Below are positions 20,471-36,113 of a DNA stretch of 53,870 nt, one piece after another. Position 1 is the first letter of the stretch; every line of letters starts with the position of its first letter. The stretch is from Oscillatoria salina IIICB1. GTDB taxonomy: Bacteria; Cyanobacteriota; Cyanobacteriia; Cyanobacteriales; SIO1D9. The translations under genes were made by a program, and so were the position numbers. Location: assembly GCF_020144665.1 (NCBI RefSeq), contig NZ_JAAHBQ010000045.1, forward strand, positions 1 through 53,870. Reading direction: 5' to 3'. The notes under the pieces were generated by a model that saw nothing but the letters and a program-made list of their open reading frames with translations, searched no databases and was not told the DNA's origin.

Positions 20471-21577
20471 ATGGTATATCGAATTCTCAGTTTAGACGGC
20501 GGTGGCGTTCGTGGCATTCTCGCCGCCCAAATGCTTACTTATTTCGAGGAACTAATTTATCCCCAACCCTTACACGAATACTTTGATTTAATTGCCGGAA
20601 CCTCAACTGGTTCCATCCTCGCTGCTGGCATTAGCATCGGCATGACAGCAAAACAACTGGTGGAATTATACGCTACTAAAACAGATATCATTTTTCCCTA
20701 CTGGGGAACTTGGGGATATTTATCACCCAAAAGAATACCCCTAATTCTCAAATATGGAATTTCTGCACCAAAATTTTCTCACGACGGACTCATCAAAGTC
20801 TTACAAGAAGAATTTGGCAAAATTACCCTTGCTGAAGTTACACCCGAAGGTAGTTCTCGACCAAATTTATTAATTCCCTCTTACGACACAATTCATCGCA
20901 AACCAATTGTCTTTAAAAGCTGGCGACACGAAATGCCTTATGCCAATCTTTTTCTCTGGGAAACTTGCGTTTGTTCCGCTTCCGCGCCAACTTTTTTCCC
21001 CGCTTATGGAGTTATAGATGCCACAGGAAATATTATTTATTCTGCCGTAGATGGTGGTTTAGGCGCAAACAATCCCGCCGCTTGTGCCGTCGCCGAAGCC
21101 CTCAGATTAAACCTTCCCATTAGTGATTTAGCAGTTCTTTCTATCGGGACTGGCGAAATGATTAACCCCTTTCCTTATCGCAAAGTTAGAGGCTGGGGCG
21201 TTATTCAATGGGCAGGAAAAATCGTCGATATCTTGATGGATGCTTCCTTAGAAATTCATGAATATATTACCAGAGAAATAGTTTGTAATTACGAAGACAA
21301 TCAACGCTACCTACGCTTGCAACCATTATTAACTTCAGAGTATTTACAAAAAGTCCTTGACGAAGAATTACTTTTAGACTTGTTAAGTAATCTCCCACCG
21401 AAGCCAAGAAAAAAAGTTAGAAAGGGAGAAATAGAAGTAGTTCAAGGTTTAGACGTGGCGAGTAATTATAACTTACAAATTTTAAAAACTTTAGGCAAAG
21501 CTTACGTCAAAAATGGTATAGTTATTGACCGACCAGTCAGTGAAAGATTGCAAGAATTTGTCCAAGTAAGTTCTTAG
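20471..21577 (+). CDS. Patatin-like phospholipase
   Basis: 368 residues with the complete patatin signature: the oxyanion-hole DGGGVRGILAA at residues 9-19, the nucleophile elbow GTSTGS near 43 (catalytic Ser in G-x-S-x-G) and the DGG motif (VDGGLGANNPA) near 196. Patatins are Ser-Asp lipid acyl hydrolases acting on membrane lipids. No signal peptide is seen. The ~110-residue C-terminal part is not recognised. Patatins also occur as effectors of anti-phage systems, but no cyclase or other partner gene is adjacent. Start is an ATG after an AT-rich spacer. Confidence 0.88.
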   Translation: MVYRILSLDGGGVRGILAAQMLTYFEELIYPQPLHEYFDLIAGTSTGSILAAGISIGMTAKQLVELYATKTDIIFPYWGTWGYLSPKRIPLILKYGISAPKFSHDGLIKVLQEEFGKITLAEVTPEGSSRPNLLIPSYDTIHRKPIVFKSWRHEMPYANLFLWETCVCSASAPTFFPAYGVIDATGNIIYSAVDGGLGANNPAACAVAEALRLNLPISDLAVLSIGTGEMINPFPYRKVRGWGVIQWAGKIVDILMDASLEIHEYITREIVCNYEDNQRYLRLQPLLTSEYLQKVLDEELLLDLLSNLPPKPRKKVRKGEIEVVQGLDVASNYNLQILKTLGKAYVKNGIVIDRPVSERLQEFVQVSS

Positions 21578-21629: not shown

Positions 21630-21818
21630 TCAAGCAAGTAGACTGTCGATAAACTTCTCTTCTTGTTCCAAGTTGTAAATAAGCTCGTTCAAAGGATACA
21701 TTGTCGCAAAATTGGCAGCTTCATTAACTCGCTTGGCAACTTCTTTAGTTACACATCCACATAAATAAAAACACTCACAATCAGGATTTTCTCGTCTGGT
21801 ATTTTCAAAAGACTTCAT
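21630..21818 (-). CDS. Cysteine-cluster small protein, unknown function
   Basis: 62 residues with a tight CxCxxxCxC cluster (Cys at 14, 16, 20 and 22) that could bind a metal, then a charged helical C terminus (NLEQEEKFIDSLLA). A TAGGAG ribosome-binding site 7 bases before the ATG supports translation. It lies convergent to the patatin gene and I do not recognise the family. The spacer upstream toward 22087 holds no other gene. Confidence 0.55.
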   Translation of the reverse strand: MKSFENTRRENPDCECFYLCGCVTKEVAKRVNEAANFATMYPLNELIYNLEQEEKFIDSLLA

Positions 21819-22086: not shown

Positions 22087-23964
22087 ATGAGCGTAGATAA
22101 ATATCTCGAATCTATAGAAACAGTTATTCTCTCGCGACAACTTAGTCCTGTGGAGAGATTAGTGTTGCATCAGTCCTGGGTGGGACGAACTTATACGGCT
22201 ATGTCCCAAGATTCTGGTTATGGAAATTCTTATCTTAAGGAAATTGGTTCTCAGTTGTGGGAGGCACTTTCTAAAGCTGTAGGGAAAAAAGTAACGAAAA
22301 AAAATCTGAATTTAGTTTTAAGCGAATATCTAGAAAAACAAACACAAACTAATGTAGTAGTTGCAATTCCGAAACTGGCGCATCCTTCTCCTGGTGCTGC
22401 TTTAGCCGCTAAATCACCTTTATATGTGAATCGTCCTCCAGTGGAAGAACTTGCTTGTGCAGAAATCAGTCAACCAGGATGTTTACTGCAAATCAAAGCA
22501 CCTAGGAAAATGGGTAAAACGTCTCTGCTTAACCAAATTGTTGGTTGTGCTAGAGATTGGAATTATCACGTTGTCTATTTGGATTTTCAAGAAACTGAAG
22601 AAGCAGTTTTTTTGACTCTGGACAAATTTCTGCGTTGGTTTTGTTTAAATATTAGCAGGCAGTTAAATTTAGAACCGCGTTTAGAGGATTATTGGGATGA
22701 AGAAATGGGGAGTAAAGTAAGTTGTAAAATTTATATTAATAATTACATACTCAAGAAAATAGATCGCCCGATAATTTTAGCTTTTAATGAATTGAATAGA
22801 ATTTTCGACCGTCGCGAAATTGTCCAAGAATTTTTGCCAATGTTACGATTTTGGCACGAACAAGCACAAAGGTTTAAAAGTTGGCAAAAATTGCGCTTAG
22901 TTTTAGTTCAATCTACAGAAATTTACTTTCAAATTAAGTTAAATCAGTCTCCGTTTAATGTGGGACTGTCACTCAGATTGCCACAGTTTAATTTAGAGCA
23001 AGTAAGAGAATTAGCTTTGCGTTACGGACTTACTTGGTTAGATAATAATCAGCTTAAAGAAATTATGGCAATGGTGGGAGGACATCCTTATTTGGTTAAT
23101 CTCGCTTTTTATTACCTACGCCGGGAAAAAATTCTGCTGGAGGAGTTGTTGCAAGTTGCTCCTACACCCGCAGGAATTTATAGTAATCATTTACGGGGTT
23201 ACTTAACGATGCTCCGAGATGAACCGCAATTAAAACTAGCTCTACAACAGGTTGTAAATGCTGGTGAAAATGTGAAGTTGGAAGCAATTACAGCTTATAA
23301 GTTAGAAAGTATGGGGTTAATCGAACTGGAAGGGTTTAGTGCGAAACCATCTTGTGAGTTGTATCGACTTTATTTTCGCCAACAACTGGGTAGAGAAAGA
23401 GAGGAAAAAGATCGCCAAATTTTGCAACGCTTCTCTCGCAAAGCAAATAAGGTTGATGAACTTACTCAGCTTGCTAATCGCAATTATTTTCAGGAATATC
23501 TAGAAACTCAGTGGCAGCAGTGCCAAGAAAATTCTTCTTTTTTGTCGATGTTGTTCTGCAATATTGACTATTTTGATTTTTATAGCAAAGCTTTTGGAGA
23601 GGAAGCAGCAGCTACTTGCATTCAACAGATTGGGATTACAATTGATGATTGCGTTATGAGGTATCCGAGTGCTTTAGTGGGACGTTATGAAAGTACCAAG
23701 TTTGGGGTACTTTTGCCTGGAGTCGATCAAATTTCGGCTGTGGCGATCGCCGAAAATATTCGTCAAAGTGTTAAGGCTTTGGCGATCGCTCACGATCGCT
23801 CTGTTTATGATGGTTTTCCGGAAGATGTCCTGACTGTTAGTATTGGTGGCGAAAGTCAAATACCACAACAACATTTTTCTTCCGATCTGTTGATTATGGC
23901 TGTTAATGAGGTTCTTGTTTTAGCCAAAAAAGAAGGTGGTAATCGTGTTGTTTTTAATTCTTAA
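22087..23964 (+). CDS. vMAP-like/AAA_35 STAND-type NTPase fused to degenerate GGDEF domain
   Basis: 625 residues in three parts. Residues ~1-85 resemble the helical vMAP-type N-terminal domain of cyanobacterial NTPases (SPVERLVLHQSWVGRTYTAMS, then YLKEIGSQLWEAL). Residues ~105-430 are an AAA_35-type ATPase: Walker A-like APRKMGKTSLLN at 138-149, a Walker B-like strand ILAFNELN at 230-237 with Asn for the first acid, and GGHPYLVNLAFYYL as sensor region. Residues ~455-625 form a GGDEF fold (DELTQLANRNYF, NIDYFDFYSKAFG), but the signature itself reads ESTKF at 535-539, so cyclase activity is unlikely. It may sense nucleotides or bind c-di-GMP or GTP as a regulator. ATG start; weak ribosome-binding site. 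Confidence 0.82.
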   Translation: MSVDKYLESIETVILSRQLSPVERLVLHQSWVGRTYTAMSQDSGYGNSYLKEIGSQLWEALSKAVGKKVTKKNLNLVLSEYLEKQTQTNVVVAIPKLAHPSPGAALAAKSPLYVNRPPVEELACAEISQPGCLLQIKAPRKMGKTSLLNQIVGCARDWNYHVVYLDFQETEEAVFLTLDKFLRWFCLNISRQLNLEPRLEDYWDEEMGSKVSCKIYINNYILKKIDRPIILAFNELNRIFDRREIVQEFLPMLRFWHEQAQRFKSWQKLRLVLVQSTEIYFQIKLNQSPFNVGLSLRLPQFNLEQVRELALRYGLTWLDNNQLKEIMAMVGGHPYLVNLAFYYLRREKILLEELLQVAPTPAGIYSNHLRGYLTMLRDEPQLKLALQQVVNAGENVKLEAITAYKLESMGLIELEGFSAKPSCELYRLYFRQQLGREREEKDRQILQRFSRKANKVDELTQLANRNYFQEYLETQWQQCQENSSFLSMLFCNIDYFDFYSKAFGEEAAATCIQQIGITIDDCVMRYPSALVGRYESTKFGVLLPGVDQISAVAIAENIRQSVKALAIAHDRSVYDGFPEDVLTVSIGGESQIPQQHFSSDLLIMAVNEVLVLAKKEGGNRVVFNS

Positions 23965-33797: not shown

Positions 33798-36113
33798 GTG
33801 TTGGCAGTCTACAAAAAAAAGCGAGTTAGAGCAATATTATCCTGGTTGTTAACAATAGTTTTGACCTGGGGTTTAGTTAGTTGTGGAGATCGAATCAAAT
33901 CATCTGAGTCTTTTGAGACTCAACTAGGCTCTCCGACAACTGGAGAGAAACTTACAGAAGTGGCTCCTCCAGAGGTAATTCAACAATTAGGGAGAAAGCT
34001 GAATAAATACCGACCACAGGTAAGTATTCTCAGTCCGGGAGTCGATCGAGTTTTGCCAGATACTTCAGTAGAGGTAAAGCTTCAGGTGCGAGATTTACCT
34101 GTATTTAAATCTGAATTGGGAATTGGACCGCATCTAACGCTCATTTTAGATAACGATACCTATCAGGAAATTTATGACCTAGATCGCTCGATCTTGTTGA
34201 AGGATGTAGAACCTGGTACCCACACTTTACGAGTATTTGCCTCTCGTCCTTGGCATGAAAGCTTTAAAAATGAAGGAGCTTATACTCAAACCACATTTCA
34301 CATTTTGACGAAGACAGGAAATAATGCTCCTGACTCTTCTTTGCCATTGTTAACTTACAATCAACCTTTGGGTAGCTATGGTGCTGAACCAATTTTGCTC
34401 GATTTTTACTTAACTAATGCACCACTGCATCTGGTAGCTTTGGAAAACCCGGAAGATGAAATTGCTGATTGGCGAATTCGGGTGACAGTCAATGGACAAA
34501 GCTTTTTGATGGATACCTGGGAACCAATTTATCTCAAAGGTTTTCATCCGGGACAAAATTGGGTTCAAATCGAGTTTCTCGATGAGCAAGGTCAAGTAGT
34601 AGTAGTAAATAACGGCACCTTTAACAATACAGTTAAGCTGATTAGCTACGAACCGAATGGAGCAGATCCCCTTTCTCAGCTAATCCGAGGAGAAATTTCT
34701 ACGGCGATCGCTCAAAGTATTGTCGATCCTAATTATCAACCAGAACCAGTTCCTCAGCCAGAAGAAGTTCCAGAAACTATACCAGAAACTACTGAAGAAC
34801 CTACATCTGAGGAAACCCCGGCAGTAATTCCACCCCCAAGTGAACAAGCAGCACCACCACCTGTGGTGACACCGGAAACACCTACTGAACCAGAAACCAA
34901 ACCAGAAGTTATTCCACCATCAGTAGTGAAACCGGAAATAACTACTGAGGAAACACCCACCGAACCAGAAACCGAGGAAACCCCGGCAGTAATTCCACCC
35001 CCAAGCGAACAAGCAGCACCAACACCTGTGGTGACACCGGAAACACCTACTGAACCAGAAACTAAACCAGAAGTTATTCCACCATCAGTAGTGAAACCGG
35101 AAATAACTAGTTCTACTGAAACTGAAAAGTCAAAGAAAGGATTCTTTGGTCGCTTACTACAATTTTTCCGAAAAACACCAACTTCTTCATCACCAGAAGT
35201 TTTAGAATCTCCTTCTAGTGAGCCAAAATTAGAACCAGAAATTCCGATCTTGCCAGAAAAAACAACCGAAGCTATTGAAGAGTCTGGGGAAAATCTTCTC
35301 CCTAGTGAAGAAGTCGAGTCCACTACTTCTGAGTCAGTAGTTCCGACTCCAGCACCAGTAGCTAAACCAGAAATAGCTCCTGTGGCACCAGAAAAAACAA
35401 CCGAAGCTATCGAAGAGTCTGGGGAAAATCTTCTCCCTAGTGAAGAAGTCGAGTCCACTACTTCCGAGTCAGTAGTGCCGACTCCAGCACCAGTAGCTAA
35501 ACCAGAAATAGCTCCTGTGGCACCAGAGAAAACAACCGAAGCTATTGAAGAGTCTGGGGAAAATCTTTTCCCTAGTGAAGAAGTCGAGTCCACTACTTCC
35601 GAGTCAGTAGTTCCGACTCCAGCACCAGTAGCTAAACCAGAAATAGCTCCTGTGGCACCAGAAAAAACAACCGAAGCTAGTGAAGAAGTGAAGTCCACTA
35701 CTTCCGAGTCAGTAGTTCCGACTCCAGCACCAGTAGCTAAACCAGAAATAGCTCCTGTATTACCAGAAGAAAACACCAAAGCTACAGAAGAATCCGAGAA
35801 GAATGCTGTTACCACTAAAGAAGTTGAATCTACTACTTCCGACTCAGAGGATGTAGTTCCAACTCCAGCACCAACAAAAGTAAAACCAGAGATACCGACT
35901 ATACAGCTTAAGGAAACTAAAAAATCGTTGAAAGAGTCACCTCAATCAGGAAAATCTCAACTTCTTCCTGGGGAACCATATACCCTACCAGAGATAGTTG
36001 AAGATGCTCCTATTAAGGAACCTGTGGAGCCATTAGAAGAAATTGCTCCATTAAAAGAACCTCAAGCGACGGAAACAAAACCAGAAAATTCCCAAGAGCG
36101 ATCGCCAGAGTAA
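33798..36113 (+). CDS. Repeat-rich lipoprotein with conserved N-terminal domain
   Basis: 771 residues starting at a GTG with AGGAGAGGA 4-12 bases upstream. A basic, hydrophobic signal peptide ends in the lipobox LVSC (Cys29). Residues ~60-285 form a conserved globular part with two beta-sandwich-like segments (VSILSPGVDRVLPDTSVEVKLQVRD; HTLRVFASRPWHESF; DWRIRVTVNGQSF). Residues ~310-771 are a Pro/Glu/Thr-rich extension. This contains two ~50-residue ETPAVIPPPSEQA units, a basic patch (KSKKGFFGRLLQFFRKTP), and then 45-residue units of the KTTEAIEESGENLLPSEEV type. It is probably anchored in a membrane with a long flexible arm; function unknown. Confidence 0.8.
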   Translation: MLAVYKKKRVRAILSWLLTIVLTWGLVSCGDRIKSSESFETQLGSPTTGEKLTEVAPPEVIQQLGRKLNKYRPQVSILSPGVDRVLPDTSVEVKLQVRDLPVFKSELGIGPHLTLILDNDTYQEIYDLDRSILLKDVEPGTHTLRVFASRPWHESFKNEGAYTQTTFHILTKTGNNAPDSSLPLLTYNQPLGSYGAEPILLDFYLTNAPLHLVALENPEDEIADWRIRVTVNGQSFLMDTWEPIYLKGFHPGQNWVQIEFLDEQGQVVVVNNGTFNNTVKLISYEPNGADPLSQLIRGEISTAIAQSIVDPNYQPEPVPQPEEVPETIPETTEEPTSEETPAVIPPPSEQAAPPPVVTPETPTEPETKPEVIPPSVVKPEITTEETPTEPETEETPAVIPPPSEQAAPTPVVTPETPTEPETKPEVIPPSVVKPEITSSTETEKSKKGFFGRLLQFFRKTPTSSSPEVLESPSSEPKLEPEIPILPEKTTEAIEESGENLLPSEEVESTTSESVVPTPAPVAKPEIAPVAPEKTTEAIEESGENLLPSEEVESTTSESVVPTPAPVAKPEIAPVAPEKTTEAIEESGENLFPSEEVESTTSESVVPTPAPVAKPEIAPVAPEKTTEASEEVKSTTSESVVPTPAPVAKPEIAPVLPEENTKATEESEKNAVTTKEVESTTSDSEDVVPTPAPTKVKPEIPTIQLKETKKSLKESPQSGKSQLLPGEPYTLPEIVEDAPIKEPVEPLEEIAPLKEPQATETKPENSQERSPE
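34811..35105 (+). repeat. Coding repeat, two units of the ETPAVIPPPSEQ type
   Basis: Two near-identical segments begin GAGGAAACCCCGGCAGTAAT at 34811 and at 34976, a period of 165 bp. They encode Pro/Glu/Thr-rich sequence within the lipoprotein gene. Confidence 0.85.
35263..35760 (+). repeat. 135-bp in-frame tandem repeat, about four units
   Basis: CCGAAGCTA recurs at 35266, 35401, 35536 and 35671, an exact 135-bp period (45 codons). The first three units are nearly identical. The fourth carries an internal in-frame deletion, and a fifth degenerate unit follows. This marks recent copy-number change inside the lipoprotein gene. Confidence 0.93.

Follow-up and report, generated by a model that had tools for sequence, protein, structure and literature searches.

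Diguanylate cyclases such as WspR and PleD join a GGDEF domain to a receiver domain. Degenerate members are also described; the Escherichia coli proteins CdgI and CsrD have a dead active site (A-site) and a probable role in protein contact, and two-hybrid tests show that degenerate E. coli GGDEF domains form specific GGDEF-GGDEF contacts (PMC5635695). GGDEF is also a rare element of the VMAP and vWA proteins of VMAP ternary conflict systems, where inactive versions of cNMP cyclases are reported (Kaur et al. 2020, PMC7159879), and PMC10907252 treats the same vWA-MoxR conflict systems. The AAA_35 ATPase domain is listed among the accessory domains that sigma factors of cyanobacteria carry (PMC11119718). 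No prior description of an AAA_35-GGDEF fusion was found in the open-access literature searched, and the GGDEF protein of PMC10581220 is a CHASE2-PAS protein, other than the one considered here. We describe a gene of the cyanobacterium Oscillatoria salina IIICB1 whose product joins an AAA_35 ATPase to a GGDEF domain that lacks its active-site residues. It lies on contig NZ_JAAHBQ010000045.1, which was analysed over 53,870 nucleotides (the window).

The gene is an uninterrupted plus-strand frame of 625 amino acids at positions 22087-23964, and its ATG start lines up with the starts of relatives. As the original prediction had proposed, it encodes a STAND-like ATPase fused to a GGDEF domain that is catalytically dead by its residues: Pfam finds AAA_35 (PF14516) at residues 104-432 (E 6e-138, 459.5 bits, cut-off 27) and GGDEF at residues 455-620 (E 4e-28, 98.8 bits, cut-off 23.8), and the signature of the latter reads ESTKF. 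The AlphaFold2 model of the full protein has a mean pLDDT (per-residue confidence) of 88 and a pTM (predicted template modelling score) of 0.54, so that the arrangement of the domains in it is uncertain. The features are as follows.

22087..23964, plus strand: gene for the helix-turn-helix (HTH)-like - AAA_35 ATPase - pseudo-GGDEF protein (P0001, 625 amino acids; open reading frame, Pfam, AlphaFold2)
22087..22359, plus strand: N-terminal five-helix domain, probably HTH-like, residues 1-91 (own model, pLDDT 84)
22396..23382, plus strand: AAA_35 STAND-like ATPase domain, residues 104-432 (Pfam E 6e-138; 2qen fold)
22498..22524, plus strand: Walker A, APRKMGKTS (sequence, alignment)
22774..22791, plus strand: Walker B, ILAFNE, with Asn for Asp, common to the lineage (alignment)
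23356..23445, plus strand: long linking helix, residues 424-453, at the position of a signalling helix (predicted structure)
23449..23946, plus strand: pseudo-GGDEF domain, residues 455-620 (Pfam E 4e-28; WspR fold 9t28)
23689..23703, plus strand: ESTKF replacing GG(D/E)EF, residues 535-539 (alignment with relatives)

The ESTKF sequence is in frame at residues 535-539, and the flanking R533 and Y534, together with F539, are conserved. A sequencing error or local frameshift at the signature is unlikely, since conserved in-frame residues abut ESTKF on both sides. Alignment with 82 other fusions shows N492, D497, S500, A509, E535, S536, T537, K538 and G618 at nine positions where intact members mostly have D, K, N, D, G, G, E, E and R. 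We take the PleD equivalents to be D327 (metal), K332, N335, D344, GGEEF and R446. None of these nine active-site positions is kept, compared with 30 of 44 other conserved positions (Fisher p 1.8e-4; a position counts as conserved if at least 90% of the 51 intact fusions agree there, and the positions are not independent). Such a pattern marks a pseudoenzyme, not a domain in general decay. It had been claimed that the DxLTxLxNR and NID motifs are both retained. The first is present as DELTQLANR; the NID claim has to be reversed because its first residue, N492, occupies the position of the metal-binding Asp and is thus the lost ligand. The Asp of the inhibitory-site (I-site) RxxD motif, whose place is five residues ahead of the signature, is likewise replaced, by Ala, in the alignment with WspR.

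The fold itself is predicted to be retained. Most of the modelled GGDEF domain has a pLDDT of at least 87, and it superimposes on WspR 9t28 with Z 28.2 and a root-mean-square deviation (rmsd) of 1.2 Å over 165 residues; the rmsd is 1.2-1.6 Å in comparisons with isolated WspR domains. It should be pointed out that the structural-match list (VIA-align) mainly concerns residues 414-625. The predicted domain thus shares its fold with WspR and PleD, but the protein lacks GG(D/E)EF, the metal-binding Asp, the guanine-binding Asn and Asp (ESTKF, N492, S500, A509) and the I-site Asp, and it has an ATPase in place of the receiver domain. Judged from residues, the proposal that the protein is not a cyclase holds, since metal, guanine, phosphate and catalytic positions are all replaced. 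The dead A-site and a probable protein-contact role are points of likeness with CdgI and CsrD, although no STAND ATPase is mentioned for the degenerate E. coli proteins in the portions of PMC5635695 available.

Relatives come from three sources: the best 80 of 554 loci reported by a profile scan of genome contigs (a single-protein scan found none); a search of the phylum in which 97 of 386 genomes, the source genome included, match at E <= 1e-130, with three candidates scored per genome; and 59 related genomes plus the source genome, 54 of these 60 having an AAA_35-level match at E <= 1e-30. In at least 26 genomes of the phylum search a listed match extends into the GGDEF part. The scored set has 83 fusions, 49 HTH-AAA_35-GGDEF and 34 AAA_35-GGDEF proteins. 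It is enriched for relatives of the query, and its fractions are not phylum-wide rates; frames identical over the last 300 residues were merged, near-identical ones were retained, and one metagenome locus (L069) was excluded from motif counts.

The three-part architecture therefore recurs, and so does the altered signature: E/D-x-T-K-F (ExTKF) is present in seven of the 49 HTH-AAA_35-GGDEF proteins, the window protein included. The six others (L063, L064, L065, L066, L117 and L155) have hosts that include Scytonema, Hassallia, Brasilonema, Amazonocrinis and Nostocales HT-58-2, and their number rejects a one-off mutation. At the guanine-binding Asn position five have Ser, as in the window protein, and one has Thr. 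They keep no active-site position of the nine in L064 and L155 and one to three in the other four, and all six have lost the DxLTxLxNR motif that the window protein keeps. More broadly, the A-site is lost in 32 of the 83 fusions; its core is intact in 26/49 HTH-AAA_35-GGDEF and 25/34 AAA_35-GGDEF proteins. On the ATPase tree at least 14 changes separate intact from lost states, many of the branches being weak.

Close homologues with an intact GGDEF had been named as what would refute the original prediction, and in part such homologues do exist. Proteins at L011/L040, L061 and L062 have an intact GGEEF, and the best-scoring full-length relative of the window protein has an intact GGDEF; in L060 the GGDEF signature is kept, but Asn replaces the metal Asp. 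ExTKF members stand about as close to the window protein: identity is 62% in the ATPase and 43% in the GGDEF part for L117 (ExTKF), and 57% and 42% for L011 (intact). The intact-GGEEF cyanobacterial proteins, e.g. L061 of Argonema antarcticum and a paralogue in the source genome (contig C47), have AAA_35 followed by GGDEF, as here, and in nearly all cases share the Walker B Asn. They differ in keeping the A-site, and several short ones show an RxxD before the signature (read from the alignment, uncounted); the window protein has neither.

The Walker motifs are as first proposed. Walker A is APRKMGKTS, with GKT at the P-loop, and Walker B is ILAFNE, with Asn for Asp and the Glu (E235) kept. The Asn is found in 116 of 137 lineage rows (HTH-AAA_35-GGDEF 45/50, HTH-AAA_35 40/53, AAA_35-GGDEF 31/34), whereas plain AAA_35 frames have Asp in 68 of 71; this Asp is typical of plain members and is not part of the profile definition. 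As judged from the alignment, the Asn characterises the lineage, in which the Glu is mostly kept, and is not a lesion of the window protein. The predicted fold of residues 99-432 resembles that of the Walker-type archaeal ATPase PABY2304 of Pyrococcus (2qen; Z 20.9, rmsd 4.2, 313 residues aligned), although identity is only 15%.

The N-terminal domain had been called vMAP-like. A conserved domain is indeed present, but it has no Pfam match, and the vMAP name is tentative. It is likely HTH-like. Foldseek with its model gave no significant match, the top rows including sigma region 4 and other HTH proteins at E >= 0.56, and the copy at L057 matches Sigma70_r4 at E 9e-4, under the family cut-off. 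A profile built from 24 N-termini finds seven places in the source genome, the window gene included. By reading, three of the others are NB-ARC-like STANDs, as judged from the P-loop (L171, L174, L176); L175 resembles a receiver protein, L172 is an AAA_35 protein and L173 a short frame.

The explanation that we favour, on balance and with modest confidence, is a STAND-type assembly switch in which the pseudo-cyclase serves as a dimerisation or docking module; among the functions suggested in the original prediction, a self-assembling switch remains the best. The HTH-like domain and the AAA_35 ATPase would be the sensing and assembly core of an intracellular switch, and nucleotide-dependent assembly of the ATPase may be passed through the long helix to the C-terminal GGDEF fold. 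The helix lies where a signalling helix would be expected (such helices are described in PMC1592074), and pLDDT drops to about 52-75 across residues 431-460. In intact relatives the GGDEF domain would be the output, a diguanylate cyclase firing on dimerisation. In the window protein the cyclase would have turned into a pseudoenzyme. With active-site residues replaced and the fold kept, the domain is most likely a dimerisation or docking surface, acting in a homodimer or in a heterodimer with an intact GGDEF protein, and would not make or sense cyclic di-GMP (c-di-GMP). Four other explanations, taken below, are less likely.

The GGDEF part might be a decaying passenger on a working HTH-AAA_35 core, the dead cyclase being a stage toward loss. 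This is an unlikely reading, and the trees bear on it directly. The tree of the ATPase part has 137 rows, frames with fewer than 290 ATPase residues being left out; 48 of these rows, picked by hand, were used for a full-length tree without the signature (quick search), and 31 of the 48 for a test of constrained topologies. In the 48-row tree a clade of 30 rows (SH-aLRT 82) holds ExTKF, other degenerate and GGDEF-free proteins together with L060, and the intact L011 group lies just outside it, an arrangement that counts for the passenger. In the 31-row test the L011 group stands beside the group of the window protein. The window protein itself falls in a poorly supported region of both larger trees. 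A constraint that places it in the ExTKF/Nostocales clade is not rejected (approximately unbiased test, p-AU 0.754; log-likelihood 10.3 above the free quick search), and neither is one that groups it with the intact L011/L061 (p-AU 0.616; 3.8 above). A GGDEF-only tree, from which L069 is omitted, does not join it to the ExTKF group. Both placements being compatible with the trees, ExTKF may or may not stem from one inherited event.

Selection speaks on both sides. For GGDEF the ratio of nonsynonymous to synonymous rates (dN/dS) lies at 0.25-0.42 in six ExTKF pairs and at 0.21-0.26 in four intact pairs; the ATPase values are 0.09-0.17 in the ExTKF pairs and 0.09-0.23 in the three intact pairs whose dS is usable. 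One further pair was saturated, several dS values are near or above 1, and pairs share lineages. The dead domain of the ExTKF relatives thus evolves at dN/dS well below 1 and near the intact range, which argues against a passenger, as do the open frame and the confident predicted fold. Decay would explain losses, but not the selective erasure of an active site in which no catalytic position of nine and 30 of 44 others are kept.

Several observations weigh against our preferred explanation, and some of them also for the passenger. The GGDEF dN/dS of the ExTKF pairs is about 1.8 to 2.8 times the ATPase value, and these ratios come from the ExTKF relatives only, the best full-length relative of the window protein (alignment A1) being 53% identical. 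GGDEF-free relatives are numerous in the same clade, and GGDEF remnants lie at or after the end of the ATPase frame in L116, L123 and L124; the domain is therefore dispensable there. In L069, a metagenome contig, GGDEF is broken between two frames, possibly by an assembly error. L068 keeps 7/9 active-site positions, yet its losses at the other conserved positions (29/44 kept) are as many as those of the window protein. Finally, an intact fused paralogue was seen in only four of the seven ExTKF genomes (the source genome, G410, G419 and G420), while HT-58-2 has a degenerate one and none was seen in two, with signatures read by pattern among the 30 loci listed. Constant pairing of the pseudo-cyclase with an intact paralogue is therefore rejected as a rule. 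Taken together, the low dN/dS and the fragments and losses indicate a dead domain that is constrained where kept, yet can be lost.

The original prediction had also offered a nucleotide second-messenger receptor, with the degenerate GGDEF binding c-di-GMP, GTP or another nucleotide and gating the ATPase. Precedents exist among degenerate GGDEF proteins, e.g. E. coli CdgI, whose I-site is kept (PMC5635695), and the source genome (5.96 Mb, nine AAA_35 matches) has 32 GGDEF matches, so that c-di-GMP is likely present. The window protein, with the guanine contacts, the phosphate Arg and the I-site RxxD Asp all gone, lacks the canonical sites for such a ligand, and the receptor is improbable.

A role in anti-phage defence, as a conflict-system component of the vMAP/STAND type, is more doubtful again. 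In its favour are the HTH-like head shared with NB-ARC-like STANDs of the same genome (by reading), the rare GGDEF domains and inactive cNMP cyclases of vWA-MoxR conflict systems (Kaur et al. 2020, PMC7159879), which are a likeness to VMAP ternary systems, and an upstream patatin that resembles CBASS lipases. The nearest neighbours by Pfam are this patatin, a hybrid kinase and a small HTH protein, to which reading adds topA and psaB. The patatin-like lipase (20471-21577, plus strand) is close to CBASS effector lipases, with 171 bits for the NCBIfam model (cut-off 200) and a PADLOC phospholipase effector match at E 5e-65. No nucleotidyltransferase lies beside it, its flanks being read as topA and the window protein, and the genome has no SMODS match (other CD-NTase models were not searched). 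The patatin, the Cys-rich miniprotein described below and the small HTH gene do not recur at the loci of relatives, bar one patatin match (L123, 29% identity, E 5e-21), although tblastn may overlook queries as short as the last two. VMAP ternary systems have vWA and MoxR genes next door; here none of the immediate neighbours was recognised as a vWA, MoxR or peptidase gene, frames further out being read by eye. The protein has no PADLOC match, and its surroundings read as housekeeping: the window is by reading a cyanobacterial contig, with frames resembling psaA, psaB, ndhB, topA and other such genes. These comparisons do not support the suggested link to defence.

A cyclase with an unorthodox active site is hardly credible. 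Active proteins with a degenerate signature do exist, such as VCA0965 with AGDEF (PMC3974145), but in the window protein, unlike AGDEF, the two metal ligands are replaced together with the catalytic Glu and the guanine contacts.

The switch with a pseudo-cyclase module may have a wider setting. In 51 of the 129 rows with room, a second AAA_35 frame of the same strand begins no more than 700 bases downstream; an upstream one (within 1.8 kb) occurs in five. Walker B reads DE in 48 of the 51 downstream partners. Eight of 137 rows were left out for short contigs, and closely related genomes inflate the counts; a stricter pass, limited to 600 bases and to rows having room for 1500 bases, found 33/90. 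Examples are L106:5007-8131, L064:5001-8717 and L117:5007-8638. By class, a partner follows 16/34 AAA_35-GGDEF proteins, 22/36 HTH-AAA_35 proteins with Asn and 4/11 with Asp or another residue, 2/25 signature-intact HTH fusions, 4/18 other degenerate ones and 3/5 ExTKF proteins. The window gene has no downstream AAA_35 partner. These tandems suggest that Asn and Asp Walker B ATPases may work as unlike pairs, and offer a concrete hypothesis for how AAA_35 proteins might work. Perhaps there is a family of two-ATPase switches in which an Asn-Walker-B AAA_35 protein, often HTH-headed and often upstream of a DE-Walker-B one, has had its cyclase repeatedly rebuilt as a pseudo-cyclase, the ExTKF Lys at the catalytic Glu position perhaps replacing the metal; such proteins could exert dominant control over partner switches or over intact AAA_35 cyclases. 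We offer this broader scheme as a speculative one. Although pseudo-cyclases are common, the stages of their evolution are seldom observed. In this cyanobacterial family, intact, disabled, fragmentary and absent GGDEF states occur on one ATPase scaffold, and the purpose of a dead GGDEF can therefore be tested by comparing siblings.

Among the neighbouring genes, the hybrid kinase (MHYT, PAS, GAF, HisKA, REC) and the patatin named in the original prediction are confirmed by Pfam. At 25 loci entries there are matches to stretches of this kinase in its PAS, GAF, kinase and receiver domains; they span 69 to 379 residues and in no case its full length. Since such domains are common, a functional link to the window gene is only a possibility. 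Separately, at 17 of 70 loci the HTH-AAA_35(-GGDEF) gene has a member of one PAS-type histidine kinase family close by (L082:2914-4461 and the frames clustered with it). The predicted Cys-rich miniprotein exists as a frame of 62 amino acids (21630-21818, minus strand; CxC...CxC) between the patatin and the ATPase gene; its status as a gene is doubtful, as it has no Pfam match and no match in 59 other genomes, and it is possibly not a gene. Scans of the locus for promoters and terminators gave no excess over shuffles.

Among 12 loci from the ExTKF group and from near relatives with a GGDEF fragment or no GGDEF, seven share a glycosyltransferase cluster and four a polysaccharide-synthesis cluster, one representative of each having been profiled. 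This fits an exopolysaccharide setting for the ExTKF-group locus, but not for the window protein.

A few other arrangements deserve mention. Nostocales HTH-AAA_35-GGDEF proteins with an intact GGEEF (L079, L082, L094, L103 and kin) have inserts of about 20-35 residues immediately ahead of the signature, close to where the I-site would lie. Dulcicalothrix has two AAA_35-GGDEF fusions of different types side by side on opposite strands (L067:2975-7600; L068:4249-4974), plus a GGDEF frame of 241 amino acids that is also found beside the fusion in Calothrix HK-06. In the window itself, the frame at 33798-36113 (plus strand) reads as a protein that begins like a lipoprotein and continues with near-identical tandem repeats rich in Pro, Glu and Thr.
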